A stretch of 64,000 nt of DNA from a virus, in the IMG/VR virus record IMGVR_UViG_3300044712_001570, positions 1 to 64,000 of that record; one strand, 5' to 3'. Within the stretch, counting starts at the first letter, position 1; every line of letters begins with the position of its first letter. The translations under genes were made by a program, and so were the position numbers. Positions 2,411 through 39,958 of the stretch are shown piece after piece. Under the pieces are notes generated by a model. The model worked only from the letters and a program-made list of their open reading frames with translations. It ran no database searches and was not told the origin of the DNA.

Positions 2411-3040
2411 TCACAAGATAGGTTGCATCCAACCGAGGACACTCTTCTGATCAAAAACCAACTGTCGAGCATCGACCTTTCTCTTTGATAAAAGAGAAAC
2501 AAGATCTCTTAAGATCTCTTTAAGAATTAAGATCTTAAAACACGGGGGTGTTTTGATTATTTTGGAAGGCCTTAGGGAAGAGCTTTCGAAGGCTCCTAAA
2601 CCGGCCATTTTGAGTCGCCATGTAACCAACTCCGGTGCACCCCCACACCTCCCTGTGGAGTACATCCCCATTCCAGCTCGTATAAGATTTTTGTGATCTC
2701 TGCATAGTACTATGGCCTCCTTCATGACCACTAACCCTATCTCCAATCCCAACTTGCGTGAGTTTTTAACTTCGCTTGATATATAACCATGTGCCTTAAG
2801 GTGGTTAACATTAACCTGCATCACACCTATAGACCTACCGCTATCACCAACAGTAGCTGGGTCCCACTTGCTCTCGTACCAAGACCATAGCAGTAACAAC
2901 TTTTCAGTCTGTTCTTCCGATAGATTAATCAAAGCACCCCCACTTGAAACAACCTCGTGCACCTCTTGTGCAACCTGTTTACCTAGGTCTATGTGGGAGG
3001 GAGGGGTGAAGGTGAGTAAAAATGCTAATAGCTGTTCCAT
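2411..3040 (-). CDS. Lytic transglycosylase (SLT-like) with in-frame hairpin insert
   Basis: A 209-residue peptidoglycan lytic enzyme. Residues about 45-145 form an SLT/goose-lysozyme-like domain. Signs are the catalytic glutamate in WYESKWDP (about 53-60), then GDSGRSIGVMQV, the family's 'G-S-x-G-x-M-Q' box, and GMGMYSTGRCG. It would cleave the glycan strand of the cell wall during lysis or DNA entry. The N-terminus (MEQLLAFLLTF) is hydrophobic but short, so export is uncertain. After the domain, from about residue 160, the protein continues into a segment beginning IIKTPPCFKIL. That segment is encoded by four tandem hairpins and recurs in the replication protein at 32169-33407. The insert therefore forms most of the C-terminal tail and is dispensable for the catalytic fold. 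Whether the phage uses this as endolysin or virion enzyme is unclear. Confidence 0.85.
   Translation of the reverse strand: MEQLLAFLLTFTPPSHIDLGKQVAQEVHEVVSSGGALINLSEEQTEKLLLLWSWYESKWDPATVGDSGRSIGVMQVNVNHLKAHGYISSEVKNSRKLGLEIGLVVMKEAIVLCRDHKNLIRAGMGMYSTGRCGGAPELVTWRLKMAGLGAFESSSLRPSKIIKTPPCFKILILKEILRDLVSLLSKRKVDARQLVFDQKSVLGWMQPIL
2464..2560 (-). repeat. Tandem-hairpin element, copy A (in frame inside lysozyme gene)
   Basis: Read on the minus strand from 2560 down. Hairpin 1 is AAAACAC-CCCC-GTGTTTT (2554-2537). Then comes a cluster of AAGATCTT palindromes (2540-2501). Hairpin 3 is TTTCTCTTT-TATC-AAAGAGAAA (2499-2478), and hairpin 4 is GTCGA-TGC-TCGAC (2476-2464). Copy B at 32621-32717 has the same order. 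Hairpin 1 is identical in both; hairpins 3 and 4 keep pairing with different loops or different stem sequence. Weaker similarity (AGCTCTTCCCTA) extends upstream of both copies. Both copies are translated in the same frame, giving IIKTPPCFKIL. The pattern resembles small palindromic elements known to insert in frame in protein genes, such as Rickettsia palindromic elements. Confidence 0.85.
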
Positions 3041-3202: not shown

Positions 3203-6109
3203 TTATCTTGATGATATCGACATTCCTAACTGTGCATGAGGGTTTTCGTCCTCGTTAGCTACAAGTGCACCTGCAGCTCGTGCCATCTCCCTTGCTAACC
3301 ATGCCGACATGAGCACGTCGGGTGTATGCTTAGAAGGGCTATAAAACAAGCATGCATCTATAAACTTCTGCACCACTGGTTCCACTCGCCCGTACTTATC
3401 GTTAGGTATTAGCCATATACCATGTGATAACTCGACGAACATACTCTCGACACCATGAGTTGGGTGCACCTTGTTTCTACCAGTCGTATGAGGTTTGACT
3501 GGTAACCCAGGTGCTAACTTTCGCGTAAACTGTATTATGTATTGTTGCGCAGCATTGTTTTCAACTCGAATAATAGAGTTAAACCTTCTGTGCTTTTCTA
3601 TAATCTTGTTTATGATTGTTGGTCCATCGCACTGCAATACATCAATATCAAGAATACGTCGAAGACCAGATGGTAGAACCTCAAAGGTGAAGAACGATGT
3701 ATCATCATGTTCTTCACCTGGTTCTATCGCTAAGTCCACCCCAGTGTAGATTTGACCATCACCAAGGTACCTTTCCTGCAGTAGATGGTAATGACCTAAA
3801 TCCCTAGCTTTCTGCTTACATAACTCAATCCATTCATCCTTGCATCTAGCAGTCGCATCATCACGACAGTTATTGCAAAAGAGCTGGTTGAACCTATGGG
3901 GTAAATGGTTTCTTTTTAGCTTTTCAACTAACGGTGGAGTAAACACCTCCGGCCATAGAGGAGTTGTATTATCTGGGTCTGGTTGTTCTGATACTAATCG
4001 CAATACCTGCTCGTCAGGTTTATCTGTAGCGGGTCTAATATAGTCTGCTATCTCATCATCAATACCCCATGTATCGGGTACATCGACTCCATCCAACCCT
4101 ATCTGTGGAGGCGTTGAGACCATAATGTTTCCATCGATGGACATGCGCATAGTAGGCCAACCTGCTTTTTCCAATCGGTGAAGCATGTCGTCTGTATGCC
4201 ATGCAGTATTAGTTATAATAATCTTGGCACCCCTCAAGTCCATTCGACTAAGAACTGAGGAGTCAAAGAACTCGTACACCTTATCCCTTGATTCCTTAGT
4301 ACCTGTATTCTCCATATTGAGTATATCGTCTACAAGCACCCAGGAGAGACGAGAACCTGGTAATGCCCCACCAATACCCACTGCTACCAGCGATGGGTCT
4401 CTAATACCCTCCGGTCGGTCTACAGTTATTGATGTTTGGGTCCAAGGGTCAGAAGTACGTTGGCTAGGCCTTAGGTTTGGGAATACAGCTCGAAGCTTTA
4501 CCGATGTCTCTATATAGTCTCGAACCATCGATAATGGTTTCTTGGCTTGTTCCTGCGTTGCAGAGACTATAGCCCCTCGCATGGTAGGGTCCTTACCCAT
4601 AAGGAAAAGAGCTAATGCTGCGGTCGAGAATGTATTATGGGCAATAACCCCGCTTGCAATGAAGTTATGACCATCTGGAACAGTAAGGTCGAATACTTCC
4701 CTTTCCCCTATATCTTCAATCTTCACTACTTCATCCCATGCAACTGCTTCGTCAAAGGCAATCTTTAGCAGCTCACTTTTATCTATAAACTGTTGGGTGG
4801 ATTGCCTAATGCTGACTAGACCATTGCATGGAGTAGTAAATAGTACCTCTCGAAGGGATGCATGTGCTTTCCACTTTATGCTTCTCTTTAGTGCATTGAT
4901 ATTAGGTGTAGCATCCCTTATCTGCTGCTCTATTATGTTTGCAGCTTCTACTGATATACGAGCAAGACCAGTATTTGGATTCCTTTTCTTTGCTACATAT
5001 CTTTTTAATGCCTGGGCTTTATGCCCCCATAAGGGGAAGTACTCCGAGAATGCTTGTATCGAGGTAGACCTAATCTCTAATATCCAGCTATCAAAGTATT
5101 TATCCTTACACTTTGCCTTTCGATAGGTATAGCCAGATTGAATAGAGAAACGAAGTAGCAATAGCTGAAGTTGTTGAATCAGCTCTTTACTTGCCAATGT
5201 TATGCAAGCGCCATTGGTCTTCGATATGGTGCCATCACATCCCCATAGGGTATTAATAAATACCTGTACAAGCTTATTAGGTAACCTAAACACCTGTTCC
5301 GGAATGTGCTTATGCTTGCTCAACTTTCCCCATAAACCACATTCCTTTATGAACTCACGAAGATTAGGAGCATTTACAATCGAGTAGGTTCCCTTAGCAG
5401 ATGGAACTTCTCTAAGCTCACCCTCTATCATGTTTTCAACTGCATGCCTGACCTTTTCGACAAGTATAGGGTCTGGTTTAGTAAAGCTTAGTTTACCACC
5501 AGTTAGGCTCCCATCGGCTGTTAGCACCGCTAGAATGGTTACCCAAGCTTCGCTACCTATAGGGATTTTATACTCCTTAGGTTCTGGTACATAACGTGGT
5601 GTTCCTATAGTCTCACCTATGCGAATACTTTCCGCATTGCTCCACCCTAGTGGGGTTAGGTATGGATGCTCGGGTGTTGTCTCTACCTGCAGACCACTTC
5701 GCAATGTAATGCGAAGGCATCGCTTTACACCAGTTGCAATAGCAGTTGCTCGTCGTACTTGGATACCATCCTCAGGCTTCCATCCTGCTATGCTTACGGT
5801 GCCTTTGAACGATTCAATAGGCTTCCAACAGCCAGTCTTCCCATCCAGTACCAATGAACCTTTAGCTAGGCACTTAGCGTGTCCAACGGGCCAGAAGTTA
5901 ACAGAGCGTTCATGATTGAGCATAAAGTTCAATCCAACACGCTGGTGTCTAGCAACTTTTATAGGTGTTCTATGTAACTCATGCACCATAACGAATTCCA
6001 TGAAGTCATTGATATTCGTTCTAGCTGCTTGAGTTTTTCGAAGTACCCAGTTCCTTAACCCTATGACCTTTGCAGGGTCACTTAAACAATCTGGTGGAGT
6101 CACTAGCAT
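3203..6109 (-). CDS. terL: Terminase large subunit interrupted by an intein
   Basis: A 968-residue precursor; removal of a 413-residue intein leaves a 555-residue TerL, a normal size. TerL is the packaging motor that pumps and cuts phage DNA at the portal. The joined P-loop reads PVGHAK/TFST, with the intein exactly between Lys79 and Thr493. Walker B is VLVDD (591-595). The ATPase coupling motif lies near IIITNTAWHTDD (630-641). The nuclease domain shows candidate metal ligands Asp792 in YTGVDLAIEPG, Glu850 in RVENNAAQ, and Asp931 in HTPDVLMSAW. The ATG at 6109 follows AGGTGGAA and overlaps the probable TerS gene by 7 bases. Splicing is required for function because the intein splits the ATP-binding loop. 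Confidence 0.97.
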   Translation of the reverse strand: MLVTPPDCLSDPAKVIGLRNWVLRKTQAARTNINDFMEFVMVHELHRTPIKVARHQRVGLNFMLNHERSVNFWPVGHAKCLAKGSLVLDGKTGCWKPIESFKGTVSIAGWKPEDGIQVRRATAIATGVKRCLRITLRSGLQVETTPEHPYLTPLGWSNAESIRIGETIGTPRYVPEPKEYKIPIGSEAWVTILAVLTADGSLTGGKLSFTKPDPILVEKVRHAVENMIEGELREVPSAKGTYSIVNAPNLREFIKECGLWGKLSKHKHIPEQVFRLPNKLVQVFINTLWGCDGTISKTNGACITLASKELIQQLQLLLLRFSIQSGYTYRKAKCKDKYFDSWILEIRSTSIQAFSEYFPLWGHKAQALKRYVAKKRNPNTGLARISVEAANIIEQQIRDATPNINALKRSIKWKAHASLREVLFTTPCNGLVSIRQSTQQFIDKSELLKIAFDEAVAWDEVVKIEDIGEREVFDLTVPDGHNFIASGVIAHNTFSTAALALFLMGKDPTMRGAIVSATQEQAKKPLSMVRDYIETSVKLRAVFPNLRPSQRTSDPWTQTSITVDRPEGIRDPSLVAVGIGGALPGSRLSWVLVDDILNMENTGTKESRDKVYEFFDSSVLSRMDLRGAKIIITNTAWHTDDMLHRLEKAGWPTMRMSIDGNIMVSTPPQIGLDGVDVPDTWGIDDEIADYIRPATDKPDEQVLRLVSEQPDPDNTTPLWPEVFTPPLVEKLKRNHLPHRFNQLFCNNCRDDATARCKDEWIELCKQKARDLGHYHLLQERYLGDGQIYTGVDLAIEPGEEHDDTSFFTFEVLPSGLRRILDIDVLQCDGPTIINKIIEKHRRFNSIIRVENNAAQQYIIQFTRKLAPGLPVKPHTTGRNKVHPTHGVESMFVELSHGIWLIPNDKYGRVEPVVQKFIDACLFYSPSKHTPDVLMSAWLAREMARAAGALVANEDENPHAQLGMSISSR
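4634..5872 (-). mobile_element. Intein with LAGLIDADG homing endonuclease in TerL P-loop
   Basis: The 413-residue intein runs from Cys80 (CLAKGSLVL, splicing block A) to Asn492 (GVIAHN, block G), and the first downstream extein residue is Thr493. Block B is TPEHPYLTP (145-153), whose His is expected to assist the N-terminal acyl shift. Block F is HNFIASG before VIAHN. Two dodecapeptide motifs, ILAVLTADGSL (192-202) and FINTLWGCDGT (284-294), mark a DOD/LAGLIDADG endonuclease able to spread the intein into empty terL genes. The acidic residues of both motifs are present, so it looks intact. Insertion at the Walker A loop is a favoured intein site in terminases and other ATPases. Confidence 0.95.
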
Positions 6110-9995: not shown

Positions 9996-10143
9996 CACCT
10001 GCTATAGATTGATTAGGCTACAAAGAAACATACAATCATTTAGCTATAATTACATGTGGTGCTATGTGCCATTATCTATCGAGGTGCAATCCTATTGGGC
10101 TGTTTGCATGGATGCACCACTACTCGAATGTAGAAAGGGTTAA
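9988..10143 (+). CDS. Small protein sharing an N-terminal repeat with 13835-14143
   Basis: A 51-residue frame starting at an ATG overlapping the previous stop (AATGAGTAA). A TTG at 10009 is an alternative start that would give MIRLQRNIQ, identical to the first nine residues of the protein at 13835-14143. The identity is at DNA level over 25 bases (10010-10034). The rest ([18 protein letters not shown]) matches nothing else here. It may be a decayed duplicate that kept the start region, or a genuine small gene; coding status is moderate. Confidence 0.45.
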
Positions 10144-13386: not shown

Positions 13387-13842
13387 ATGCTGGATGAAAA
13401 CAAGTATCAAGAGCTAAAGGAGGGGGAGGAGTTCTGCCCCTCTGGTTGTGTCTTTAAGTGGTTAAGGGAAGAGGATAATACTGAGTACTGTAGGGATTAT
13501 GGTACTCATGATAAGTATCCTACAATAACTCTGCTATCTAATCTGCTATCTACTAAACTGCAGCAACGACTATTAGACGTAAATGTAAGACCTGCAGGAG
13601 CACCAGCTCTAAGACCTATTCGAACTTCAAGGTGTATGAAGCGAAGGTGCCCATCTAAGTCTAAGTGCAAGGCTTTACTTATAGTGGGTGGGCAACCTGT
13701 ATGCTTTCTAGCGCAATCTTTATCTATAGCAAGGTGGAGAGTAGATGAACGTTCACCACAACTCAGGGTCTTTGAGTGCAATACTAAAGCAAAGGCATTT
13801 AGCGTTTTTATGGACATCTTGAATGGAGATCTAAATGATTAG
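13387..13842 (+). CDS. Hypothetical Cys-containing protein
   Basis: A 151-residue protein. FCPSGCVF near the start and RCMKRRCPSKSKCKALL with VCFLAQ later give enough Cys for one or two zinc sites. The remainder is not recognised. The GGAGGAG run at 13421-13427 is coding. It overlaps the next gene by 8 bases. Confidence 0.6.
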   Translation: MLDENKYQELKEGEEFCPSGCVFKWLREEDNTEYCRDYGTHDKYPTITLLSNLLSTKLQQRLLDVNVRPAGAPALRPIRTSRCMKRRCPSKSKCKALLIVGGQPVCFLAQSLSIARWRVDERSPQLRVFECNTKAKAFSVFMDILNGDLND

Positions 13843-14143
13843 GCTACAAAGAAACATACAGCTATTGATGCATGAAACTGACTTCATCAAAGTATTAGAG
13901 CAGCACCTGTCGGATGTACAGGTAGAAGGTATTAAAGAAAAGCTTGAAGATGAGTTCGATGGTTGGAAAACACAACACGATGACACAGAGCTTGCTGCCA
14001 TTATTGAAGATATACCAGCCATAAAAGAAGAGTGGTTTTATGGTGAGTATGAACTAACCAAAGGGGGCAAGGTTTATATTGGTTCAGAAGAGATGGATAC
14101 CGATTCGGAAACCTATGCGAACATAAACATATGGTGGTCATAA
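13835..14143 (+). CDS. Hypothetical acidic protein
   Basis: A 102-residue acidic protein with long helices (TDFIKVLEQHLSDVQVEGIK) and the segment MDTDSETYANINIWW at the end. Its first nine codons lie in a 25-base repeat shared with 10010-10034. No family is recognised. Confidence 0.6.
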   Translation: MIRLQRNIQLLMHETDFIKVLEQHLSDVQVEGIKEKLEDEFDGWKTQHDDTELAAIIEDIPAIKEEWFYGEYELTKGGKVYIGSEEMDTDSETYANINIWWS

Positions 14144-17464: not shown

Positions 17465-18108
17465 TGACCTATAGTAGGAATAATGATATGGTCTATGAGA
17501 TACATGGGATGGTAGGGGCTATTGACCCTGCTACTAACAATATGATAAATAACCATCGAGAAGAGCTAAGGAGAATACATAGGGCTTGCTGTAAGATGGT
17601 ATCTGGTAAGGATACTAAAACCAATCATCGTATTGGTACCCTATGGCGAAGGCTTATGTATACCTCCTCATGGTTTGCTGAGGATACTTTAGAGAGTTCT
17701 ACCTATGATAGGTATAAGTACACCTATGATAGGTCTACTAAGATGGAGCGAAGTATAGGTAACAGCTTATGCTTACTGATAAGCATACTGCATGTTCCCG
17801 TGGATGATATAAAACCTTTAATAGCTCCAGAGCTAGCACCTGAGATGCATAACTCACCTAGGTTTCTTCAACTCGAAGACCACGCTGGATGGTTCGAACC
17901 TATAGTATATCAAAAGCTATTGACCCATAAAAGACTTATATCCCTGCTAGTTCGAGATGGTGAGCTAAAGTATGCTAATAAGCTTATGGAGGGTATGAGC
18001 TTCAATACAGTAGGTCTCAAAGAGACCGCTATAGATAACCTTAAAGCTATGCAGGCTTTATTGCATATCTATAGGGAGGAGATGATTGAGTTCGAGATAC
18101 CATTCTAA
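17461..18108 (+). CDS. Hypothetical helical protein
   Basis: A 215-residue, mostly helical protein (NHREELRRIHRACCKM, NSLCLLISILHVPVDDIK, LKAMQALLHIYREEMIEF). There is no membrane segment, metal motif or P-loop. Expressed by overlap with the preceding small gene. Confidence 0.6.
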   Translation: MMTYSRNNDMVYEIHGMVGAIDPATNNMINNHREELRRIHRACCKMVSGKDTKTNHRIGTLWRRLMYTSSWFAEDTLESSTYDRYKYTYDRSTKMERSIGNSLCLLISILHVPVDDIKPLIAPELAPEMHNSPRFLQLEDHAGWFEPIVYQKLLTHKRLISLLVRDGELKYANKLMEGMSFNTVGLKETAIDNLKAMQALLHIYREEMIEFEIPF

Positions 18109-24980: not shown

Positions 24981-26159
24981 ATGAGACAAGATCGGTTAAT
25001 GCACGCAGCATTCTTCACCCCACTTAGTGGGGGGAGATGGGGATTACCCATAGTGTTTGAGGGTATCCCGGGTATTGCAAAGTCTTCACTAGTTAGGGAC
25101 TTCGCAGCTAAATGCGAGGTACCACTGCACATATTAGATGCATCATCAGGTGAGGGTGCATACGGGGTTATCCCTATGCCTATGGACCATAAGGGGGTTC
25201 TATCCACCCGGTATCCTATCCCTGAGTGGGCAGTAGATATGCTAACGAATGACGTTGGTGTAGTTTTCGTGGATGAACTAACATCCACACCACCACTCAT
25301 TCAAGCTGCTCAGATGGCGCTTATTCTTGATCGTCGAATAGGTGGTCACACGCTACCTCAACGCGTTAGAATATTAGGAGCTTGTAACCCCACTGACCAA
25401 GCGACTTATGGACACGAGATAGCTGCTCCTTTAGCTAATAGATGTGTATGGGTGCATGTTGACCCTCCTTCAGTGGAGGAGCATGCATCCTATATGATGG
25501 GGCTAACTTCTGACAAGTCCCAAGAAAAGGTTAGCGCTTCCCAAGAGGAAGCACGCGTACTAGCAGAATGGCCCAAAGCATGGGCTACTGCTGTAGGTTT
25601 AGAGATAGGGTTCCTTTCAAGGAACCAGGGCTATAAAAACGGTGTACCTACAGACACATCAGGACAGCAGAAGAAAGGGAGTGATATAGGTATAGGTATT
25701 AAGTCATTCCCCTCGGATAGATCATGGGAGGCGGCCACAAGAGCCATTGCCACAGGTATAGTACATAACCTCTCAACAGAAGAAACCAACGACCTTATTG
25801 CTGGGTGTATAGGGTCCACTGCAATGAACTTAGTACGAACATATCAGGCAGAGTGCGATCTACCTGATACATCCAACCTATTAGATGGTAAGGTATCATT
25901 CACGCATTCACAGATAAGACCAGATAGAAGTGCAGCGGTCATATCATCATGTACTGCATTAGTTATCCCAAAGAGTTGCCCTAATCGAGAGAAGAGGGCA
26001 AGCGCTCTATGGAAGCTCCTGGAGTCACTTCAACTCATAATGAAAGACCTAGCTATACCAGCTACTAAGGCTTTGGTAGATAATGGTCTAGTAAGGCCTG
26101 AAGGAGTAAAGGTACTCGCCTCAGTAGAACCTATCCTGTCAGCAAGTAAGGTAAGATAG
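24981..26159 (+). CDS. MoxR-type AAA+ ATPase
   Basis: A 392-residue AAA+ protein. Walker A is EGIPGIAKSSLVRDF (27-41), Walker B is VVFVDELTS (94-102), and sensor-1 is ILGACNPTDQ. The ACNP sensor and PLANRCVWV box place it near the MoxR group. These ATPases act as chaperones that activate partner proteins carrying VWA domains. Such a partner is encoded 300 bases downstream (26456-27685), making a MoxR-VWA pair. AGGAG sits seven bases before the ATG, within a small ACTCC/GGAGT stem that could mask it. Confidence 0.92.
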   Translation: MRQDRLMHAAFFTPLSGGRWGLPIVFEGIPGIAKSSLVRDFAAKCEVPLHILDASSGEGAYGVIPMPMDHKGVLSTRYPIPEWAVDMLTNDVGVVFVDELTSTPPLIQAAQMALILDRRIGGHTLPQRVRILGACNPTDQATYGHEIAAPLANRCVWVHVDPPSVEEHASYMMGLTSDKSQEKVSASQEEARVLAEWPKAWATAVGLEIGFLSRNQGYKNGVPTDTSGQQKKGSDIGIGIKSFPSDRSWEAATRAIATGIVHNLSTEETNDLIAGCIGSTAMNLVRTYQAECDLPDTSNLLDGKVSFTHSQIRPDRSAAVISSCTALVIPKSCPNREKRASALWKLLESLQLIMKDLAIPATKALVDNGLVRPEGVKVLASVEPILSASKVR

Positions 26160-26180: not shown

Positions 26181-26456
26181 ATGATCAAAACTGGAACAGG
26201 TTGGTTAGTGATAGAGGAACCAGCAACCGGCGTAGTTGACATATGTAAGGTCGACTACAACAATGGGTGGTCAAATAATAATCCTGGTGGGTGGACGTAC
26301 CAGGATTATTGTCACTCACATGGTCGTGTTTCACTTGAAACCATAGATCGCCTTGAGGCAGAAGAGTTCGCCAATAAAGCGGTGCAGTATTACAGATCCT
26401 GTGGGTTTGAGGATAGTCGAGTTTTCCATAACTATGACTGTAAGGAAAATATCTAA
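26181..26456 (+). CDS. Hypothetical protein between MoxR and VWA genes
   Basis: A 91-residue protein starting MIKTGTGWLVIEEPATGVVD with a Gly/Asn/Trp-rich middle (NNGWSNNNPGGWTYQDY) and a helical end (IDRLEAEEFANKAVQYY). Overlap by one base with the VWA gene implies coupled translation. Possibly an accessory of the ATPase pair; no family is recognised. Confidence 0.6.
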   Translation: MIKTGTGWLVIEEPATGVVDICKVDYNNGWSNNNPGGWTYQDYCHSHGRVSLETIDRLEAEEFANKAVQYYRSCGFEDSRVFHNYDCKENI

Positions 26457-27685
26457 TGGCAAGCAGCCCTGACATTAACTTCGCATCCGCAATGCGCATA
26501 GCTAAAACAGCTATGCCATATATGACTGGAATGCTTATTAGATTCCAACTAATAATGCGCCCAGGTATGGGGACTATGGGAGTCGATTCTAAGTTCCGAC
26601 TCTACATGGACCCTGCGGTATTAACTCAGTGGTCGGTACATGAGATAGCAGGTGTACTCATTCATGAGTGTATGCACCTGTTCCTAGACCATCCTGGGAG
26701 GTGCGGAAGTAGAGACACAGGGCTATTCAATATTGCAGGTGACTTAGCTATTAATCCAGGTCTCAAAGCTGCAAGGCTACAGTTACCAGAGAAAGGGGTA
26801 ATGCCCTCGGATTATGGGTTACCAGATAATCTAACAGCTGACGAATATTACGTTAAGTTATTAGAGATTGGAGGTGGGGGTATCACTAATCCCAACCCTA
26901 ATGGTAAACCAGGTACTGGTAACTGCGGAGGGTGCGCTCATTCTAAAGATGATAATGACCAGACACAACAAGCCCAAAGCCTTGGAGCGGAGGGGGTAGA
27001 TTCCTCTACTAAGCATCGAGTAGCTAAGGCTATGGCGGAAGAGATGCTCGCACATGCTAATGGTAAAGGGCGGGGTAGTGTGCCCGCCGGATGGTTAAGA
27101 GAAGCAGAACTACTATGCAAACCTGCTACCATTCCGTGGGAGCGGGAACTTCAACGAATACTATTGACAGCCTGTGATTATAAGGCAGGTGCAGTAGTTC
27201 ATACATTCAATAATCCTAGCCGTAGACAAGCAGGGTTAGGATATGGGGTTGGTAGCCCACGACTACCATATACCAGATGCCCTATTCCCGAAGTATGTAT
27301 CTTCTTCGATACATCCGGCTCTATGAGCAAAGAGAACGTAGAGACAGGGTTGATTGAAGTGCAGTCAATCCTGAAAAGAGTTGGTGCTAATATAACGTTC
27401 ATGTGCTGCGACCATGCAGTGCATGCTATTGTGAAAACTAATGATATTAATGTTATACTAAAGAACCTAAAGGGTGGTGGAGGTTCAAGCTTCACACCTG
27501 CTTTTGATGCCATAAAAACCCTAAAGAATGCCCCGAATATTGTGGTAGCATTCACCGACGGTGACATAGGAGTTCCGGAAGAGTGTCCTCCTGGGCTCAC
27601 AGTTATATGGTGCCTAGTTGAGAGACACCATACCCCACCTACCGAGGCATGGGGCAGAGCCGTATGGTGCGTTAATAAGGATTGA
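26456..27685 (+). CDS. VWA-domain protein with HExxH metallopeptidase-like domain
   Basis: A 409-residue protein of the 'VWA-like predicted metallopeptidase' group. The N-terminal half has LIHECMHLFLDH (69-80), a zincin motif with HECMH and downstream acidic residues. The C-terminal third is a von Willebrand A domain with the MIDAS sequence FFDTSGSMS (about 283-291), a downstream GGGGSSFTPAF, and VAFTDGD. The MoxR ATPase encoded just upstream is the expected partner. This pair could remodel or cleave a host or phage protein during infection; the substrate is unknown. Confidence 0.9.
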   Translation: MASSPDINFASAMRIAKTAMPYMTGMLIRFQLIMRPGMGTMGVDSKFRLYMDPAVLTQWSVHEIAGVLIHECMHLFLDHPGRCGSRDTGLFNIAGDLAINPGLKAARLQLPEKGVMPSDYGLPDNLTADEYYVKLLEIGGGGITNPNPNGKPGTGNCGGCAHSKDDNDQTQQAQSLGAEGVDSSTKHRVAKAMAEEMLAHANGKGRGSVPAGWLREAELLCKPATIPWERELQRILLTACDYKAGAVVHTFNNPSRRQAGLGYGVGSPRLPYTRCPIPEVCIFFDTSGSMSKENVETGLIEVQSILKRVGANITFMCCDHAVHAIVKTNDINVILKNLKGGGGSSFTPAFDAIKTLKNAPNIVVAFTDGDIGVPEECPPGLTVIWCLVERHHTPPTEAWGRAVWCVNKD

Positions 27686-28618: not shown

Positions 28619-29247
28619 CACAGCTAAAGACTACAATCGCACTAAAGCATGCGGATAATGTAGCAACTGCGGTTGCTGCTAGATATTATAAATCAAACCC
28701 AAGTGTGGTCTCCTTTGAAGACCTAAAACAAGAAGCTTGGTTGACTATAGTTGATATAGACCATAGAGGCGGTTTCAATGCTACCAAAGGCGTAGAGTTT
28801 AGATACTACGCCTTTCAAGGTTGCGTTCGAATGCTGCAACGCATGATGTGGTCCAATAGCTCCCCAGTATCAGGGGTACATGCATCTAAATCCGATGCTA
28901 GGGATTATGCATGTAAAGGTCTAGCGTTTGATGATATAGCGGACCCAAGTAAAGTAAGGATGGCTAGTACTAGCAAACGTTTTTATGTATCGTTTAGCGA
29001 AGAAACATCAACCCTACCAAGCCAAGAAGAGGACTATCACTCCAATCAAATAAGAGCTGCACTAATAGATGCAGCTATGAGAGCTAGCATACCAATAGTA
29101 GCTGTTAGTGTTTTATTAGGTGAGGCTTCTATTGAGGAAGCTTCTAATGCATTAGGATGTACACCTAAACAGATGGAGGGTCACGCTAAGTACCTACAAT
29201 CGATTCTCAAGTTTGATCCAACCCTTTGGAGACTATGGAAAGAATGA
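28615..29247 (+). CDS. Sigma-70 region 2-like protein
   Basis: A 210-residue protein. Residues about 28-85 (SFEDLKQEAWLTIVDIDHR, GVEFRYYAFQGCVRMLQRMM) follow region 2 of sigma-70: 'DL-x-QE-A' core-binding helix and the aromatic strand/helix that melts the -10 element. A second helical unit with IEEASNALGCTPKQMEGH near the end can serve as region 4. It could direct polymerase to phage late promoters, or serve as a DNA-binding regulator. Compared with host sigma factors it is short. Confidence 0.75.
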   Translation: MTQLKTTIALKHADNVATAVAARYYKSNPSVVSFEDLKQEAWLTIVDIDHRGGFNATKGVEFRYYAFQGCVRMLQRMMWSNSSPVSGVHASKSDARDYACKGLAFDDIADPSKVRMASTSKRFYVSFSEETSTLPSQEEDYHSNQIRAALIDAAMRASIPIVAVSVLLGEASIEEASNALGCTPKQMEGHAKYLQSILKFDPTLWRLWKE

Positions 29248-30101
29248 AAGCTAATAAAAAAACCGCATCTGTATCCGCATTAGCAACGCAGTCCATCGTT
29301 ATGGATTCTATTGTTGAATCAGGCCTTAACCCTAACTCAATGGGTAAAGATGCCTATCGACAACTGGTTGCTAATATACGCTTGAAAGGATTCCTTCAAG
29401 CAATTCTTGTTAGACTTGTAAAGCCAGAAACAGGTGGTAGCTATTACCAACTCATAGATGGCGCACATCGTATCAAAGCGATGAAGGAGATAGGTGAAAC
29501 CAACATTCCTGCAATGATATTGGAATGCTCCGAGCCGGAAGCTATTGCACTTCGCATAGCTATGAATAGGCTTCGTGGTCAGGTTGATTTGGGTATTGCT
29601 AAGCAGCAACTCGAAGACCTATTGAAAACACATCTATGGACCGCAGACCAAGTAGAGATAACAGGCTTTAGTGCTCAAGAGATTGCAGACCTTATACAAC
29701 CTGTATTACCAGACCCGGAGCCTAATAACTCCATCCTAACATCACCAGATGATACAGGGGATGCACCTGCTACAGAACTCTCTGATGTATCGTTTACATT
29801 AGAGGTTGGAGGATTCGAATCCAAGTCTGCACTCAATACCATTCGAAAGAAACTGGTATCACTATCTACGGTTTCCCCTAAGCCCACCCTTGCAAGTGCA
29901 TTGCGTTATCTTATTGATAATGCTAACCCATCAATCTTCCCCATCAAGAAGAAGTCATCGAAGCCGAAGTTCCTCTACCAGGTATGGGGGAGGGACAATG
30001 CAAACCAGCCAGAGCTAATCCAAACCTATAAGAATAAAAAGCAAGCAGACGAGGAAGCTGCACTGGTTGGTGGTACGGTTACCGAAGTGCTAGATGACTG
30101 A
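29235..30101 (+). CDS. ParB/Srx-domain protein
   Basis: About 288 residues. The ATG at 29235 has GGAG three bases upstream; 29244 is an alternative. The ParB N-terminal fold spans about 25-130: LNPNSMGKDAYRQLVANI, QLIDGAHRIKAMKEIG (the GHR-type box), and ECSEPEAIALRIAMNRLRG. The C-terminal 60 residues (PKFLYQVWGRDNANQPELIQ, KQADEEAALVGG) look like a small DNA- or RNA-binding domain. It differs from the ParB-like protein at the left edge, so the phage encodes two. Probably regulates transcription or replication rather than partitioning. Confidence 0.85.
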   Translation: MERMKANKKTASVSALATQSIVMDSIVESGLNPNSMGKDAYRQLVANIRLKGFLQAILVRLVKPETGGSYYQLIDGAHRIKAMKEIGETNIPAMILECSEPEAIALRIAMNRLRGQVDLGIAKQQLEDLLKTHLWTADQVEITGFSAQEIADLIQPVLPDPEPNNSILTSPDDTGDAPATELSDVSFTLEVGGFESKSALNTIRKKLVSLSTVSPKPTLASALRYLIDNANPSIFPIKKKSSKPKFLYQVWGRDNANQPELIQTYKNKKQADEEAALVGGTVTEVLDD

Positions 30102-30109
30102 AAGGAATA

Positions 30110-30313
30110 ATGAACTACACGTTAGAGACTAAGAGGCTACATAGCTCCAACTACGCAATGAAGTTAGTTATTAGTATTAATGGTACCATAGTTAAAACAT
30201 TAGATGCTGTGGTACCATCGTTTGATGCAGCACTTCGTACAACGGAGGCAATAGTACATGGCCAGCGTGAATACCCTATATGTATCGAGTCATGTAAACA
30301 TTGCAATGCTTAG
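30110..30313 (+). CDS. Hypothetical 67-residue protein
   Basis: A short beta-rich protein (KLVISINGTIVKTLDAVV) followed by a helix and a CIESCKHC end with three Cys. Function unknown. It overlaps the next small gene by 8 bases. Confidence 0.5.
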   Translation: MNYTLETKRLHSSNYAMKLVISINGTIVKTLDAVVPSFDAALRTTEAIVHGQREYPICIESCKHCNA

Positions 30314-32168: not shown

Positions 32169-33407
32169 ATGTATACTACTCAACTATCACGTAGTAAGGC
32201 GAAGCCACATTCGCTTAGTGCTAAAGAGCTGGAGAGACGTATAGGCTCTACTACCTATATGGTATGGCAGGGTATATATGATGCTCGCAACGTATGGACT
32301 GGCACTACTCTTATATCTCGTGATGAACTAGCTACCGAGTTAGGTATATCCCCTCATACTGTTAAAGACTGTTTATCCCGTTTACATAAGCTGCAACTCG
32401 TTAGGACTGTAGGTCGCATGCAGGGCGGGAGAGTATGGCGACATATAGTTGGTTCCATATGGCATGGTCAGCTATGCCTACCTGTCAAGGTCTATGATGC
32501 ACTCATGCTCAACAAGGGTCGTGGAGGGTTCCGTGCGAACGCCGGACGACCAAGAAAAGATGGAAATCCACCTATGCGAAGAAGCTCTTCCCTACCCCCT
32601 CAAGATAGCTCTGCATTGATAATCAAAACACCCCCGTGTTTTAAGATCTTAAATATTAAAGATCTTAAGATCTCTGTTTCTCTTTCTGAAGAAAGAGAAA
32701 GGCAAGCTGGTGCTTGCGTCGATTCTAAAACTTTAGTCGGGAGGGATATAGCTCAACGCTTACCGGGTGTACCGAAGTTCATAAGCGTTAGTACTCTCTC
32801 GAATGTATATACACCCGATCCGCCAAGGCTAGACCCTAAAGCACACCCGCATGTTCATACCCGACTGATAGTGAAGTGGATTGAGGGTTGCTATAAAGCA
32901 TACCTAGGTAAGCGCTGTTGGATGTTTATATCCGAGAAGAAACCACTCGAACAGTCTAAGCGGTTTCCGCTATTGTTAGATGCAGCTAAAGCTTTTATTG
33001 AGAATGATATATCACCCGCGCTTTGGTTTGCATGGTCATTCAACTTCTGGAATCAGAATAAGACTAAGAAGGCTATGCCACCACTTGCATGGTTATTATC
33101 TCCTAAGCGTATGGCAGAACGTAGTGGATGGTTTCATTCAGAAGCTGCATTCACTATGGGATGCCGTATGCAGTACAATGATACTGAGCGCAAGTTCATG
33201 CTATTGCAGCATCGTATGATTACTGAACTTTCTTTATTAACCGTTGAGGAGTGTACTGATTACAAGGTGCAATCTATTGTTCATAAATACTTTCCGAAAG
33301 GGTTATATGACAACATTGTTCAAGAGATAAAGTCGGATGCTATTATGAGACAGATGGAACTCAGTGATGCAGTTGCAAGAGGAGAATGGTTATGGGGAGC
33401 CCTATAG
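32169..33407 (+). CDS. Winged-helix replication protein with in-frame hairpin insert
   Basis: A 412-residue protein. The N-terminal 110 residues form a winged helix (ISRDELATELGISPHTVKDC, LHKLQLVRTVGRMQGGRVW) like phage and plasmid replication initiators. A basic linker (FRANAGRPRKDGNPP) follows. Then comes the in-frame hairpin-element segment IIKTPPCFKIL (about 153-185). The rest (RLIVKWIEGCYKAYLGKRC onward) is a helical domain that may bind the helicase encoded next. Position before a DnaB-like helicase and primase supports a role in origin recognition or helicase loading. The insert lies in the linker between domains. Confidence 0.75.
   Translation: MYTTQLSRSKAKPHSLSAKELERRIGSTTYMVWQGIYDARNVWTGTTLISRDELATELGISPHTVKDCLSRLHKLQLVRTVGRMQGGRVWRHIVGSIWHGQLCLPVKVYDALMLNKGRGGFRANAGRPRKDGNPPMRRSSSLPPQDSSALIIKTPPCFKILNIKDLKISVSLSEERERQAGACVDSKTLVGRDIAQRLPGVPKFISVSTLSNVYTPDPPRLDPKAHPHVHTRLIVKWIEGCYKAYLGKRCWMFISEKKPLEQSKRFPLLLDAAKAFIENDISPALWFAWSFNFWNQNKTKKAMPPLAWLLSPKRMAERSGWFHSEAAFTMGCRMQYNDTERKFMLLQHRMITELSLLTVEECTDYKVQSIVHKYFPKGLYDNIVQEIKSDAIMRQMELSDAVARGEWLWGAL
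32621..32717 (+). repeat. Tandem-hairpin element, copy B (in frame inside replication gene)
   Basis: Hairpin 1 is AAAACAC-CCCC-GTGTTTT (32625-32642). The AAGATCTT palindrome cluster covers 32643-32674. Hairpin 3 is TTTCTCTTTC-TGAA-GAAAGAGAAA (32677-32700), and hairpin 4 is GCAAGC-TGGT-GCTTGC (32702-32717). Hairpin 4 shares no stem sequence with copy A yet holds the same place, and hairpin 3 gains one base pair with a different loop. The order, spacing and reading frame match the minus-strand copy at 2464-2560. Confidence 0.85.
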
Positions 33408-34765
33408 TTCATGCAAACGTTCCCATGGGTGTTACACCCTACGGGTTTGATAGTAACTACGAAAGAGCAGTTGTTTATTATCTAGCATCTAATCCTAAGT
33501 TCTTCGGTCGTATAGGTAGTGCTATTGAACCTGATTGTTTAGCAGATGAAACAGCTCGCAGTATTACTAGGGCTGCACAATCGATAGCACATGACTGTGG
33601 TACCGGTCCTGATAGTACAACCCTTATTCTTCAGCGTATGCGTGGATGGTTCAAAGAGGGTAAGATATTAGAAGAAACTGTTTATAACGCAGTTGAATAC
33701 TTTGATGCTGTAGAAGCAGATATGTCAAAGCTTCCATCATGGGAGAAGTGCTTACCCGATCTTATAGCTATCATTAAACGCCGTATGGAGTGGACAGCAC
33801 TTCAAACAGGTCTAAAAGAATACTCACATCGTGGTGATACTAGTCGTGTAGTTGATATATTCAATAAGGCTAAAAGACTAGGTACAACCGATGATGGAGT
33901 AGGCTCCCGCATAGGCAGAGCGTCCCTACAAGGTATTAAGGTCTTAGCAGAAGCTGATAAGGTGCAAACAGGTATCTTAGAGCTTGACGACTATCTTCGA
34001 GGTGGAAGAATGCGGGGTACCCTTTGGATGTGGATGGGTAGACCTGGAAGCGGTAAGTCTATGGGTTTAGTAGGGGATGCATGTGCAGCAGCCTATCAAG
34101 GCCACCTAGTATGCGCTGCGACATGTGAGTTAGCTCAAAGTCTATGGGAAGCTCGAATCAATGCTCACCTAACGGGTATCTCGATCGATGAGATATTAGC
34201 TAACCCAATGTGCATTGAGGAGCAGATAGATACTATAACAACCGCACCAGGCTTTGGTGGTATCATAGTTAAAGCTTTTCAGTCTGGGGTATCAACAGTA
34301 GAAGATGTATTTGATTGGACTAAGCATTGTGAAGATATGTATGGGTGTAAATGCTCTACCCTTGTTGTTGATTATCTTGATAAGCTAAAATCAAGGGAGA
34401 GGATTAAAGATAGATACGAGGAGCTAGGGGTTATATCAGATAAGCTTTTCTATTATGCAAGGGATGGTGAACGTTGGTCCACTACAGCTACACAAGCTAG
34501 GAGAGGTGATAAGAATAAAAAAGGTAAGTCCTCCAGATTAGAGCAGGAGGATATGGGCGACAGCGATCTTAAGTCTCGTAATACCGATTACCTATGTACT
34601 ATCAATCCAGAGGATGATGGGTATAATAGTCTATTCATTGCAAAGAACAGGGTTGGTCCTGCTGGTAAATCCGTAGGACCCTTCCCGACAGACTTCTCCA
34701 TAGCCAGGCTTGCACCTACTGTATTCCTTCCCCCTTGGAGTGGTAACACACCATGCCCACAATAA
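33392..34765 (+). CDS. DnaB-like replicative helicase
   Basis: A 457-residue RecA-fold helicase. The ATG at 33392 is chosen because AGGAG is seven bases upstream; an ATG at 33386 is in frame. The N-terminal 150 residues (DSNYERAVVYYLASNPKFFG) resemble the DnaB N-terminal domain. Walker A is GRPGSGKS (about 216-223), then Walker B LVVDYLDKLK (about 324-333). Later motifs are ATQARRGDK and a DLKSRNTDY loop. It would unwind the fork for the primase encoded after it. Length and arrangement are typical of phage DnaB-like helicases. Confidence 0.9.
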   Translation: MGSPIVHANVPMGVTPYGFDSNYERAVVYYLASNPKFFGRIGSAIEPDCLADETARSITRAAQSIAHDCGTGPDSTTLILQRMRGWFKEGKILEETVYNAVEYFDAVEADMSKLPSWEKCLPDLIAIIKRRMEWTALQTGLKEYSHRGDTSRVVDIFNKAKRLGTTDDGVGSRIGRASLQGIKVLAEADKVQTGILELDDYLRGGRMRGTLWMWMGRPGSGKSMGLVGDACAAAYQGHLVCAATCELAQSLWEARINAHLTGISIDEILANPMCIEEQIDTITTAPGFGGIIVKAFQSGVSTVEDVFDWTKHCEDMYGCKCSTLVVDYLDKLKSRERIKDRYEELGVISDKLFYYARDGERWSTTATQARRGDKNKKGKSSRLEQEDMGDSDLKSRNTDYLCTINPEDDGYNSLFIAKNRVGPAGKSVGPFPTDFSIARLAPTVFLPPWSGNTPCPQ

Positions 34766-34986
34766 TAATAAGATGGGCTATTAGATGCCATATATTAGGT
34801 TCGAAGGTTATACTATGGGTTAAGCGTACCAACCATGATTGGTGGCCTGGATGGACTCCTAATAAATCCGAACGGTGGTTACTACGAAGTAAAAAGGAAG
34901 CTAAGAAGATTGTAAAGTATCGTAGGTATTATTCCGCTCCTCAAAGGCTAAAGGTAACCTTAGTAAAGGTTCGGGTACATGCGTGA
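34753..34986 (+). CDS. Hypothetical basic protein
   Basis: A 77-residue Arg/Lys/Trp-rich protein (IIIRWAIRCHILGSKVILWV, NKSERWLLRSKKEAKKIVKY). It overlaps the helicase and primase genes on both sides, so it should be translated with them. A nucleic-acid or helicase accessory role is possible; no family is recognised. Confidence 0.55.
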   Translation: MPTIIIRWAIRCHILGSKVILWVKRTNHDWWPGWTPNKSERWLLRSKKEAKKIVKYRRYYSAPQRLKVTLVKVRVHA

Positions 34987-35857
34987 TAGCCACGTTATTA
35001 TACAGACCCAGCTATTATCTAAACGTCCTAACTCAAAAGGTTGGGTACGTGTTAATTGTCCACTATGTGTAGAGCGTGGTGAACCTACGCCAGATAAAAA
35101 GCTATCGCTAGGTGTACAGGTTAATAGTGGTTGGTTTCATTGCTGGAGATGCGATGCGAAAGGGTTCCTAGATGGTACCGATCGAACAGACTTTGAAAAG
35201 CGAGCACCTAAAGATGGATTCAAATCCATTGACCTACCAGAAGGTTTCTTCCTTCTTGATGAAAATAAATGCGAATCTTTGCAACCAGCATGGGACTATC
35301 TGACCAATCATCGCAATCTATCAGAGGACGAGATAAGGCTGCATTGTATTGGTGCATGCCTAACAGGTAGGTTTGCAGGTAGAGTAGTTATACCAGTGTA
35401 CTCTAACGATGACCGTATAGTCTATTGGGTCACCAGAAAGTGGGTAAGAAAATGTAGTAAACCCTATTTAAATCCTTCTCATGAAAGGGAAGGGCTATTC
35501 TTTGGTGAGGAGTTATTAGTAGAAGAGAGTAGTATTCCCCTCTTATGTGTTGAGGGGGTGTTTGATGCAATAGCACACTATCCCCATGCAGTTGCAACCT
35601 TAGGTAAGGTAACAGAACCCCATCTCGAACGATTAATGAAGGTTAGGAGACCAGTGGTATTCGTTCGAGATGGGGATGCAAGAGATGAGGGAATATGCTG
35701 TGCACTACGTATGCAGATGAATGGATTTGCATATGGAACAGGGTCAGTAGACCTAGGCGCAAAGGTAGACCCGGATGAAATAACACATGAAGTATTAATG
35801 TACGAAGCAGAGTTATCTCTAACAACATGGAAAGCCATCATGGAGCAAAGACAATGA
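34979..35857 (+). CDS. DnaG-type primase (zinc ribbon plus Toprim)
   Basis: A 292-residue primase. The N-terminal zinc ribbon has Cys27/Cys30 in NCPLC and Cys55/Cys58 in HCWRC, with DKKLSLGVQVNSGWFHC between them. The Toprim domain has the conserved glutamate in LLCVEGVFDAIA (about residue 190) and the DxD in VVFVRDGDARDEG (about 231). It makes RNA primers for lagging-strand synthesis. The protein is short: no C-terminal helicase domain, which fits the separate DnaB-like gene. Confidence 0.92.
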   Translation: MRDSHVIIQTQLLSKRPNSKGWVRVNCPLCVERGEPTPDKKLSLGVQVNSGWFHCWRCDAKGFLDGTDRTDFEKRAPKDGFKSIDLPEGFFLLDENKCESLQPAWDYLTNHRNLSEDEIRLHCIGACLTGRFAGRVVIPVYSNDDRIVYWVTRKWVRKCSKPYLNPSHEREGLFFGEELLVEESSIPLLCVEGVFDAIAHYPHAVATLGKVTEPHLERLMKVRRPVVFVRDGDARDEGICCALRMQMNGFAYGTGSVDLGAKVDPDEITHEVLMYEAELSLTTWKAIMEQRQ

Positions 35858-36611: not shown

Positions 36612-39179
36612 ATGCGAACTATTCCTCTCTACCCTAGCAAACCCAAGCTTGCAGTCTGCGATAACTATCCAGCCTTTAGGTGCAACAAAGATTGTGCTAA
36701 CTGCGATTTATCTACAGGTACAACGAATGTATGTTCTCCTCCGGAAGGGGATGCAGGTGGTTTGCTAGTGGTGGGAGGATTCCCATCGATTGAGGATTCA
36801 AGAGCAGGTCGACCGTTTACGAATGCTAATGGTCGACTTGTTAGGACTGCAATAACCAAACACTGGAAAGGTAGGGTGGCATTAGATAATGCTATCAAGT
36901 GTCCTCCACCTAGGAAGGATGGAAAGGTAAAGATCAAGCCCACTTATATAACCTGTTGCAGGCCTTATCTATATTCTACCTTTCAAGATGTTAAACCTAC
37001 GAGGGTTATCGTGTTAGGTAATGATGCAGCAAAGAGTGTAGTTGGTAGGGGAGTACCATCCATAACAGTTCGAAAAGGTTATACATGGTCATTCGAATAT
37101 GGATGCCCTGTATTCTTTGTTATGGACCCAGCATTCGCTATGCATAATGACAGCTACAGGGAGTGGTTCGAGGAGGATATGCAACATGCCTTGACCTGGG
37201 CACCACCACCACCTGTATGGGATGCACGTGCTGGCTTAGTGGAATCGGAGCAGGATGCCAAAGAAGCACTCGAGGTTCTAGCGACAGCAGATTGGGTATC
37301 GTTCGACGTAGAAGCTGCTGGACTAATGTTCAACGCTAGCTATCGGCTATTGAGTGCAAGCTTTACTGCAAAGGTTGATAATAACCTTGAGACATTCGTC
37401 TGGACTAGCAGAGGACTTAATACCGCATTCAATGCGTATAAAAAGATTCTAGAAAGTAGTATACCTAAAGTAGGAGCTAACATTAGGTACGATGGGTTAG
37501 CAAACCAAGTACTATATGGTATACATCTTAATAACATTATTAGTGATGTTAGGTTGGAAGCTAAGCTACTTGATGCAGAGTGTAGTGGTAAGCTCGAAGC
37601 TTTAGCAGAACGAGTAGGAATGGGAGGCTGTAAAGAAGAACAAGAAGCTGCAATGCTAGCAGGTGTAAATAAAGTAAACGCTATACTTCGTTCTGTTAGA
37701 ACTAAAGGCGCTAATGAGTTTAACTTAGGTTTACTTAGAGCCCAAGGTATAGATGATAAGCTTTATCCAGTAGTAAATGGACCTTATGATTATGAAGCCG
37801 AAAGATGGTCATATGCAGTAGTAGAAAAGAATCAACTGTATTCCTATAATGCGAGGGATACCTTAGCTACTGCTTTGGTAAAGGATTCAATCCAACCTCA
37901 GATGGAAGCTAATGAAGCTCTTAGTACTGTATGGAATGATATAGTACTACCAGCTAATGAAGCTTTCCAATGGGTTGAGTACTGGGGCTTTGGTGTATCT
38001 ATACCTGATATCATGGCCTTTAGCGCTTCACTGGACAATGATATAGCACAGGCGGAAGAAAAGCTTAATGAGATTGCTAATCGTATAGGCTGCCGTAATG
38101 TGAACTGGAGGAGTGCAGCACAGGTAGGGCCTATACTATTCGATAAGCTTAAGTTACCTGTTATTGAATATACCAATGATAATGAAGATACGTATGCTAC
38201 AGGTGGTGATGTATTAGAAGCGTTAGTAGGTAAGCACGCTATTATAGAGCATCTATTAGCCTTTCGTAAGGCAGATAAGCTTCAATACTTTGGTTCTGGT
38301 ATGCTACCTCATGTCAGAGAGGATAGTAGGATACATACAAGCATCTTATTGGATGGTGCCCGTAGTGGCCGTTCCTCTTCTATTAAGCCAAACCTTCAAA
38401 ATATTCCTAAGATTGCAAGGAAGTACTTCGTAGCCTCCCCAGGTAATCTATTAGTACAGCTTGACTATAAGCAACTCGAACTAGTCATAGCCGCTATGGT
38501 TTCTGGTGACCCTGAGATGTGTCGAATCTTTAGGGAGGGGATAGACTTCCATAGGTTTACTGCAAACGTTGTTAGTCAGCTTATGTGGGGTATTCCACCA
38601 GAAGCCGTAACAGGAGACCATCGAAGTAAGGTCAAGCCAGTAGTATTCGGTAAGTTATACGGCAAGACAGATGAAACCCTAGCTAAAGACCTTGGGTGTT
38701 CTGTTGCAACGGCTAGAAAGGTTATAGGTAGTATATTCGATAAGTTCAGTATCCTTAACCGATGGTGCAAGGACATTCAAAGGGAGGCTACACGAACAGG
38801 GGTTACTCATACCTATTGGAATAAAAAGAAAGCTCGTATGAGGTGCTTGCCACATATAACAAGCAATATGAAGGGGTTAAGGATAACAGCGGAGAACGGT
38901 AGCTATAATACTCCTATTCAAGGTACTGCTAACGACTTCCTATTAGTAAGCCTTGTACAGATAATAAGACGCATATTGCAGGATAAACTACCTGCTAGGG
39001 TATGCATAACGGTGCATGACTCTATAGTGATGGAGGTGGAGCAGTCGCAAGCTTATGATGTAGCTCGCATGGCTAAGAAGATTATGGAATCACAACCAAG
39101 TGCAGGAGCAGATGTCCCTTTGACAGCAGAAGTTGAGATAGGTCAAAGCTGGGGTCAACTAGTAAAGGTAAACCTATAA
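36612..39179 (+). CDS. polA-like: UDG-DNA polymerase I (family A) fusion
   Basis: An 855-residue replicative polymerase. Residues 1-200 form a family 4/5 uracil-DNA-glycosylase-like domain with Fe-S-type cysteines (Cys24, Cys28, Cys31, Cys97, Cys115), VVGGFPSIEDSRAGRPFT and RVIVLGNDAAKSVVG. Next is a 3'-5' exonuclease with FDVEAAG (about 232), GANIRYDGLANQV and YNARDT. The polymerase domain shows motif A LDYKQLE (about 616), motif B RSKVKPVVFGKLYGKT, and motif C VHDSIVME (about 800). It synthesises and proofreads phage DNA. The glycosylase domain's proline-containing loop is unusual and may sense uracil rather than cut it (inference). Confidence 0.95.
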   Translation: MRTIPLYPSKPKLAVCDNYPAFRCNKDCANCDLSTGTTNVCSPPEGDAGGLLVVGGFPSIEDSRAGRPFTNANGRLVRTAITKHWKGRVALDNAIKCPPPRKDGKVKIKPTYITCCRPYLYSTFQDVKPTRVIVLGNDAAKSVVGRGVPSITVRKGYTWSFEYGCPVFFVMDPAFAMHNDSYREWFEEDMQHALTWAPPPPVWDARAGLVESEQDAKEALEVLATADWVSFDVEAAGLMFNASYRLLSASFTAKVDNNLETFVWTSRGLNTAFNAYKKILESSIPKVGANIRYDGLANQVLYGIHLNNIISDVRLEAKLLDAECSGKLEALAERVGMGGCKEEQEAAMLAGVNKVNAILRSVRTKGANEFNLGLLRAQGIDDKLYPVVNGPYDYEAERWSYAVVEKNQLYSYNARDTLATALVKDSIQPQMEANEALSTVWNDIVLPANEAFQWVEYWGFGVSIPDIMAFSASLDNDIAQAEEKLNEIANRIGCRNVNWRSAAQVGPILFDKLKLPVIEYTNDNEDTYATGGDVLEALVGKHAIIEHLLAFRKADKLQYFGSGMLPHVREDSRIHTSILLDGARSGRSSSIKPNLQNIPKIARKYFVASPGNLLVQLDYKQLELVIAAMVSGDPEMCRIFREGIDFHRFTANVVSQLMWGIPPEAVTGDHRSKVKPVVFGKLYGKTDETLAKDLGCSVATARKVIGSIFDKFSILNRWCKDIQREATRTGVTHTYWNKKKARMRCLPHITSNMKGLRITAENGSYNTPIQGTANDFLLVSLVQIIRRILQDKLPARVCITVHDSIVMEVEQSQAYDVARMAKKIMESQPSAGADVPLTAEVEIGQSWGQLVKVNL

Positions 39180-39448: not shown

Positions 39449-39891
39449 ATCATATCGAAGAAGTAGTCACAGTAAAGGAAGCAACCTCTATTGATAATAA
39501 CCAACTAAACGAAGAGTTTATACGTTTACCATCCGATCTATCCTACTTCTCTAACCTATATGCAGAAGCATGTGATGCATCTGCAAGGGCTAAGCTTTTG
39601 AAGGAGATGGCAGAAGCAGCTGTAGTACAAGAGCTACGTAGTACTAATGATAAGATAAATGTGGATATGGTTAAAGCTCTTGTTACTTTAGATGAAACAG
39701 TAGAAGCAAGTCGGCGCAATCTTATAACAGCAGAAACAAATGAAGTTCGATTGAAAGGAGTATGTGACGCTATACGAGCTAAGAAGGATATGTTAGTCTC
39801 TATTGGTGCAAACATTAGAGCGGAGTCTGAAGGTAGTCCACTAATAAGACAACAATCCCGTGCAATGCGGGAGAGTGAATCGGATAGGTAG
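39445..39891 (+). CDS. Hypothetical coiled-coil protein
   Basis: A 148-residue helical protein (LYAEACDASARAKLLKEMAE, TVEASRRNLITAETNEVRL, RAKKDMLVSIGANIRAES). The lack of aromatic residues and the heptad-like pattern suggest a coiled coil. Its 3' end overlaps the tRNA gene by 10 bases. Genes of this type often accompany SSB genes in phages, hinting at a role in recombination (inference). Confidence 0.6.
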   Translation: MNHIEEVVTVKEATSIDNNQLNEEFIRLPSDLSYFSNLYAEACDASARAKLLKEMAEAAVVQELRSTNDKINVDMVKALVTLDETVEASRRNLITAETNEVRLKGVCDAIRAKKDMLVSIGANIRAESEGSPLIRQQSRAMRESESDR

Positions 39892-39958
39892 CCCAATAGG
39901 TTAGGGTCCTCGGCTCATAACCGAGTTAGTGCGGGTTCGAGTCCCGCCCTATCCACCA
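39882..39958 (+). tRNA. tRNA-Met (anticodon CAT) or tRNA-Ile2
   Basis: A canonical cloverleaf of 77 bases. The acceptor GGATAGG (39882-39888) pairs with CCTATCC (39948-39954), followed by discriminator A and encoded CCA (39956-39958). The D-arm is GCCC...GGGT. The anticodon stem is CTCGG (39909-39913) with CCGAG (39921-39925), and the loop is CTCATAA with anticodon CAT at 39916-39918. The T-arm GCGGG-TTCGAGT-CCCGC is perfect. The first pair G-C argues against an initiator; elongator Met or lysidine-modified Ile cannot be separated here. The 5' end lies inside the preceding coding sequence. Confidence 0.96.

Follow-up and report, generated by a model that had tools for sequence, protein, structure and literature searches.

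Why would one short, palindrome-rich segment lie inside the coding sequences of both a replication initiator and a lysozyme-like protein, and in the same reading frame in both? The window analysed here comprises bases 1–64000 of an 88,121-base virus record, and the genome is probably complete, given that the initial 172 bases are repeated at the opposite end (record 1–172 versus 87952–88121, 98.8% identical). A sequence-only reading of this DNA had interpreted the segment as a small mobile palindromic element of the RPE kind. We favor a different answer, to which we assign a probability of roughly 0.64: the copy in the initiator gene (copy A) would be a replication origin, carried within the linker-coding DNA of its own O-like initiator, and the copy in the lysozyme-like gene (copy B) a second site for that initiator.

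The two copies form the strongest internal repeat of the 88 kb when the terminal repeat is set aside, with the next best match in the self-comparison at E = 9e-5, and they are the only two in the whole genome. The core of copy A (32619–32702, plus strand) aligned to that of copy B (2560–2476, minus strand) with 86% identity over 87 columns (E = 2e-19) and without any difference in the initial 34 bp. Both cores are preceded by the 13-bp sequence AAGCTCTTCCCTA, located at 32582–32594 (plus strand) for A and at 2573–2585 (minus strand) for B, with a spacer to the core of ~24 bp in A and ~12 bp in B. The unit common to both copies thus begins farther upstream than previously described. Given that this duplication is shared by two unrelated genes, the module was copied in one piece, and the sequence-only reading was right in this respect, as it was in reporting that both copies lie in frame and translate to IIKTPPCFKIL.

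The same reading had described four consecutive hairpins, a description that is exact for copy A and holds only in part for copy B. The first hairpin, H1 (AAAACAC-CCCC-GTGTTTT, AAAACACCCCCGTGTTTT; 32625–32642, plus strand), has the same sequence in A and B, and H3 (TTTCTCTTT...AAAGAGAAA; 32677–32700, plus strand) has the same outer arms with differing loops. H2, which a palindrome scan placed at 32641–32668 (plus strand) of copy A with a 10-bp stem, is split by insertions into two shorter palindromes in copy B. H4 occupies the corresponding place in both copies with unrelated sequences, GCAAGC-TGGT-GCTTGC in A (32702–32717, plus strand; palindrome scan) and GTCGA-TGC-TCGAC in B (2464–2476, minus strand; fold and terminator scans), a 1.5% event at random positions; in an alternative alignment, it is possible that A merely acquired an extra hairpin ahead of GTCGAT. 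Given the split H2 and the dissimilar H4 of copy B, the constant parts of the module are H1, the outer arms of H3, and a repeated box, AGATCTTAA. In palindrome richness, A ranked first and B third among the 120-bp windows of the 88 kb, and their palindrome scores were reached by 0 and 1 of 2000 dinucleotide shuffles, respectively. The module is a real, non-random two-site element. The second rank was held by 17658–17787, a region with the near-repeat TACCTATGATAGGTA / ACCTATGATAGGT within an ORF.

The box AGATCTTAA (complement TTAAGATCT) is 9 bp long and has eight exact copies in the 88 kb, four of them in A (at 32641, 32644, 32660, and 32665), three in B (2509, 2527, and 2530), and a lone one elsewhere (28494). 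These boxes overlap and are themselves short palindromes. The four TTAAGATCT/AGATCTTAA boxes of copy A make up an AT-rich block (32641–32673, plus strand), which we propose as putative initiator-binding boxes together with an unwinding element. The best 40-bp window of A had an AT fraction of 0.80, which is in the top 0.05% of the genome and is the AT peak of its gene, while the best 40-bp window of B was in the top 0.23%; across 40- and 60-bp windows, both copies were within the top 0.05–0.25%. Boxes common to A and B in locally AT-rich DNA point to an origin. Retention of the boxes in B while the H2 hairpin was lost favors protein-binding sites over a folded strand.

The host gene of copy A (32169–33407, plus strand; 412 aa) was identified as an O-like replication initiator by weak Pfam HTH matches and by PHROG 678, ‘replication initiation O-like’, a weak and single family match restricted to the HTH part (E = 2.4e-4, residues 45–89). 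A low-confidence structural model calculated without alignments, which can be taken as a rough layout only, predicted a winged-helix N-terminus, an unstructured linker, and a helical C-terminus. Comparison to P22 gp18 by blastp returned nothing, and no initiator relatives were detected by sequence in the PDB; the weak initiator match and the missing gp18 match count against the origin reading. The gene neighborhood is in its favor. The initiator gene is followed by genes for a DnaB-like replicative helicase (33386–34765, plus strand; PHROG 19, E = 5e-37), whose start overlaps the initiator end, a DNA primase (34979–35857, plus strand; PHROG 47, E = 2e-28), and a family A polymerase. An O-like initiator, an overlapping DnaB-like helicase, and a primase in P22-like order support an origin in A, and in P22 the initiator gp18 gene is likewise directly followed by the gene for the DnaB-type helicase gp12. 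The polymerase gene (36612–39179) encodes an 855-aa protein that combines a uracil-DNA-glycosylase-superfamily domain (residues 50–187, E = 3e-13) with a 3'–5' exonuclease and the family A DNA polymerase, and looks like an unusual fusion.

The position of the module within its gene leads to the same conclusion. It spans 33–44% of the initiator gene (residues 137–183), past the DNA-binding domain, close to the annotated origins of lambda (39–48% of O) and P22 (43–61% of gene 18), and this mid-gene position supports an origin in A. The sequence-only reading had correctly assigned copy A to the linker of the replication protein and had missed the consequence, namely that phages of the lambda-O/P22-18 type hold their origin there. 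As in lambda and P22, copy A lies in the coding sequence for the middle part of the initiator, with repeated sites, initiator-binding in those phages and putative here, beside AT-rich DNA. In contrast to both, the boxes of this phage are 9 bp long, overlapping, palindromic, and bordered by hairpins that differ in sequence, the initiator shows no more than remote similarity, and a second copy of the module is found 30 kb away. Lambda has four near-equal 18-bp iterons in O, whereas here four hairpins differ from one another and the 9-bp boxes alone repeat; copy A is therefore, strictly speaking, no lambda origin and would only work like one. In lambdoid phages, the origin combines iterons with an AT-rich tract midway through O, and the number of iterons varies by in-frame insertions that add residues to O (PMC7466680), indicating that origin DNA can expand within a reading frame.

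The arrangement of two sites also has parallels. The initiator gp38 of SPP1 binds oriL, within its own gene 38, and oriR, in the late region, and it has been suggested that tight binding at oriR arrests the fork and sets off the change to concatemer synthesis (PMC6316719, PMC3485210). As with A and B, SPP1 has one site within its initiator gene and another of comparable build in the late region. However, oriR is intergenic and 12–13 kb away, while copy B is within the lysozyme-like gene at 30 kb (SPP1 was compared by description only). In P4, likewise, a single short repeat forms clusters at two separate places, ori and crr, which were found by the same scan as A and B (see below). P4 differs in that its sites are mostly intergenic (with one ORF predicted in the record across part of crr), that the alpha primase-helicase serves as initiator, and that crr comprises two 120-bp direct repeats.

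Copy B (core 2476–2560, minus strand) was recognized by its alignment to copy A and its three exact boxes, lies ~30 kb from A in opposite orientation, and is near the 3' end of a lysozyme/transglycosylase (SLT)-like gene (2411–3040, minus strand), whose Pfam SLT match (E = 0.002, residues 45–89) is under the curated cut-off. This gene adjoins the terminase genes; the large terminase gene (3203–6109, minus strand) contains an intein with a LAGLIDADG domain. We hypothesize that the winged-helix domain of the initiator would bind the repeated AGATCTTAA/TTAAGATCT boxes, that the bound initiator would melt the AT-rich DNA around them, and that the melted DNA would let the DnaB-like helicase from the adjoining gene load, with H1 and H3 as possible structural or extra contact sites. 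Copy B could then be a second origin, a fork barrier that, as proposed for SPP1 oriR, aids the theta-to-concatemer switch, or a required auxiliary site similar to P4 crr. That a late gene would combine a cell-wall enzyme with an in-frame origin copy, acting as fork barrier or second origin in the switch from theta to concatemer synthesis, is a tentative extension that we consider somewhat doubtful.

We ran a blind scan for 9-mers that occur three or more times within 150 bp. The scan returned one region in lambda, the annotated origin; two in P22, one of which was the annotated origin; two in the SPP1-like phage PM1, one within the initiator gene, at 43–53% of its length; and, in P4, the origin as top match. 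The genome studied here had five regions including A and B, while shuffled genomes averaged ~0.5. The other three clusters, at 30180, 11359, and 2181 (ATGGTACCA, ATGATAGTA, and AGCATATGC, respectively), are possibly binding sites as well. Of the phages tested, only this one and P4 (origin and crr) had a 10-mer concentrated at two separate sites, and none of 60 shuffled genomes did. Given that the scan criteria were set after the boxes had been seen, these results are a consistency check on known origins and no independent prediction. GC skew had no switch at A or B, followed gene direction, and gave no origin signal. This flat skew, the dissimilarity of the hairpins to one another, and the three further 9-mer clusters argue against the origin reading.

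Among the alternatives, the mobile element proposed in the sequence-only reading, in which a small RPE-like palindromic sequence was inserted in frame in two unrelated genes, survives best, and we consider it unlikely. RPE are 105–146 bp long and become part of proteins by in-frame fusion (PMC2229807); the module is of comparable length, palindromic, and translated in unrelated proteins in the same frame and sense. Insertion would have been tolerated, given that the two sites are a linker and a region near a C-terminus. However, in each copy of the module only one frame per strand is free of stops (2 of 6), so that any insertion leaving the host genes open was limited to two frames and the shared frame is an approximately 1-in-2 event, which constitutes weak evidence. 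RPE occur in many copies and form long stem-loops closed by terminal inverted repeats, whereas the module has two copies in 88 kb, consists of several short independent palindromes instead of one long stem-loop, and lacks a terminal inverted repeat, be it of 12 bp or longer; the outer pairing in its predicted folds was weak (~4–6 bp) and non-conserved. One of its two sites is moreover the linker of an initiator, where an origin is expected.

A mobile element would further predict many in-frame copies in unrelated genes, and our patterns and searches detected none in IMG/VR, GTDB, INPHARED, or PLSDB. Exact and gapped patterns of the module DNA had no matches in IMG/VR and GTDB, and blastn against INPHARED and PLSDB gave partial, borderline matches at most. 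A two-box pattern had three matches in IMG/VR, which we attributed to chance: one was intergenic and preceded a terminase, another was in a contig resembling an RNA phage, and the third was in a GC-rich contig, and flanking hairpins were absent from all three. This absence from the collections is weak evidence, given that the phage has no close relative in them. In IMG/VR, no relatives of the initiator, the lysozyme-like protein, the polymerase, or the helicase were found, and the terminase had two relatives, at ~50% identity, in GC-rich phages in which no initiator or helicase relative was found. Given that neither the element nor its two host proteins had a relative in these searches, we infer its function from the features of this one genome, and an origin bound by its initiator is the most likely interpretation.

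Slightly less likely again is that A and B are duplicated operators or other regulator-binding sites, recognized by a repressor or, as centromere-like sites, by the ParB_N-domain protein encoded at 29226–30101, 2.5 kb upstream of the proposed initiator. When run with 9-mers, the two-site scan also returned the lambda OL/OR operators, which are likewise clustered palindromic boxes at two sites; the two-site criterion therefore marks DNA-binding sites in general and not origins only. On the other hand, both copies are intragenic and promoter scans identified a sigma-70-like promoter at neither. Furthermore, the protein scans revealed no ParA in the set they covered, and ParB_N was the only match for the ParB-like protein.

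An RNA element shared by early and late transcripts, such as antitermination or processing hairpins of the kind represented by HK022 put, seems improbable to us. Both copies are in sense orientation relative to transcription, A folded strongly (z-score −3.9), and a hairpin is present at the H4 position in both copies despite the differing sequences. Perfect zero-loop palindromes with repeated boxes nevertheless typify DNA sites, the H2 hairpin is not retained in B, whose fold is less distinct from shuffles (z-score −2.2), and the module is located mid-operon rather than in a leader. An Rfam search assigned no family to the module and matched a tRNA alone, a tRNA-Met (CAT) at 39882–39958 that is the sole tRNA of the window. 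In the antisense direction to the host genes, H4 followed by CTTTCTCTTT was scored as terminator-like at 32702–32717 (minus strand) and at 2464–2476 (plus strand), in both copies despite their differing H4 hairpin sequences, and could function as an antisense terminator where the origin sites are proposed. Finally, a chance relic, in which part of the initiator gene was recently duplicated into the lysozyme-like gene and B is functionless, would agree with a copy number of two and 34 unchanged bp but is very improbable, as indels and changes are mostly outside H1, the boxes, and the H3 outer arms, so that it is the palindromes and boxes that were retained.

If A is the origin and B a second initiator site, the origin of a phage without close relatives in the searched collections would have been located from sequence alone. 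The two-site design of SPP1 and P4 would also extend to a phage with a P22-like initiator-helicase order, with both sites within coding sequence. A duplicated origin in coding DNA could moreover be mistaken for a mobile in-frame element, a trap for repeat surveys.

Beyond the module, an exact 25-bp direct repeat was detected at 10010–10034 and 13836–13860. A DUF2201 putative metallopeptidase and VWA-like protein is encoded at 26456–27685, adjoining an ATPase-like gene (24981–26159) without a Pfam match.
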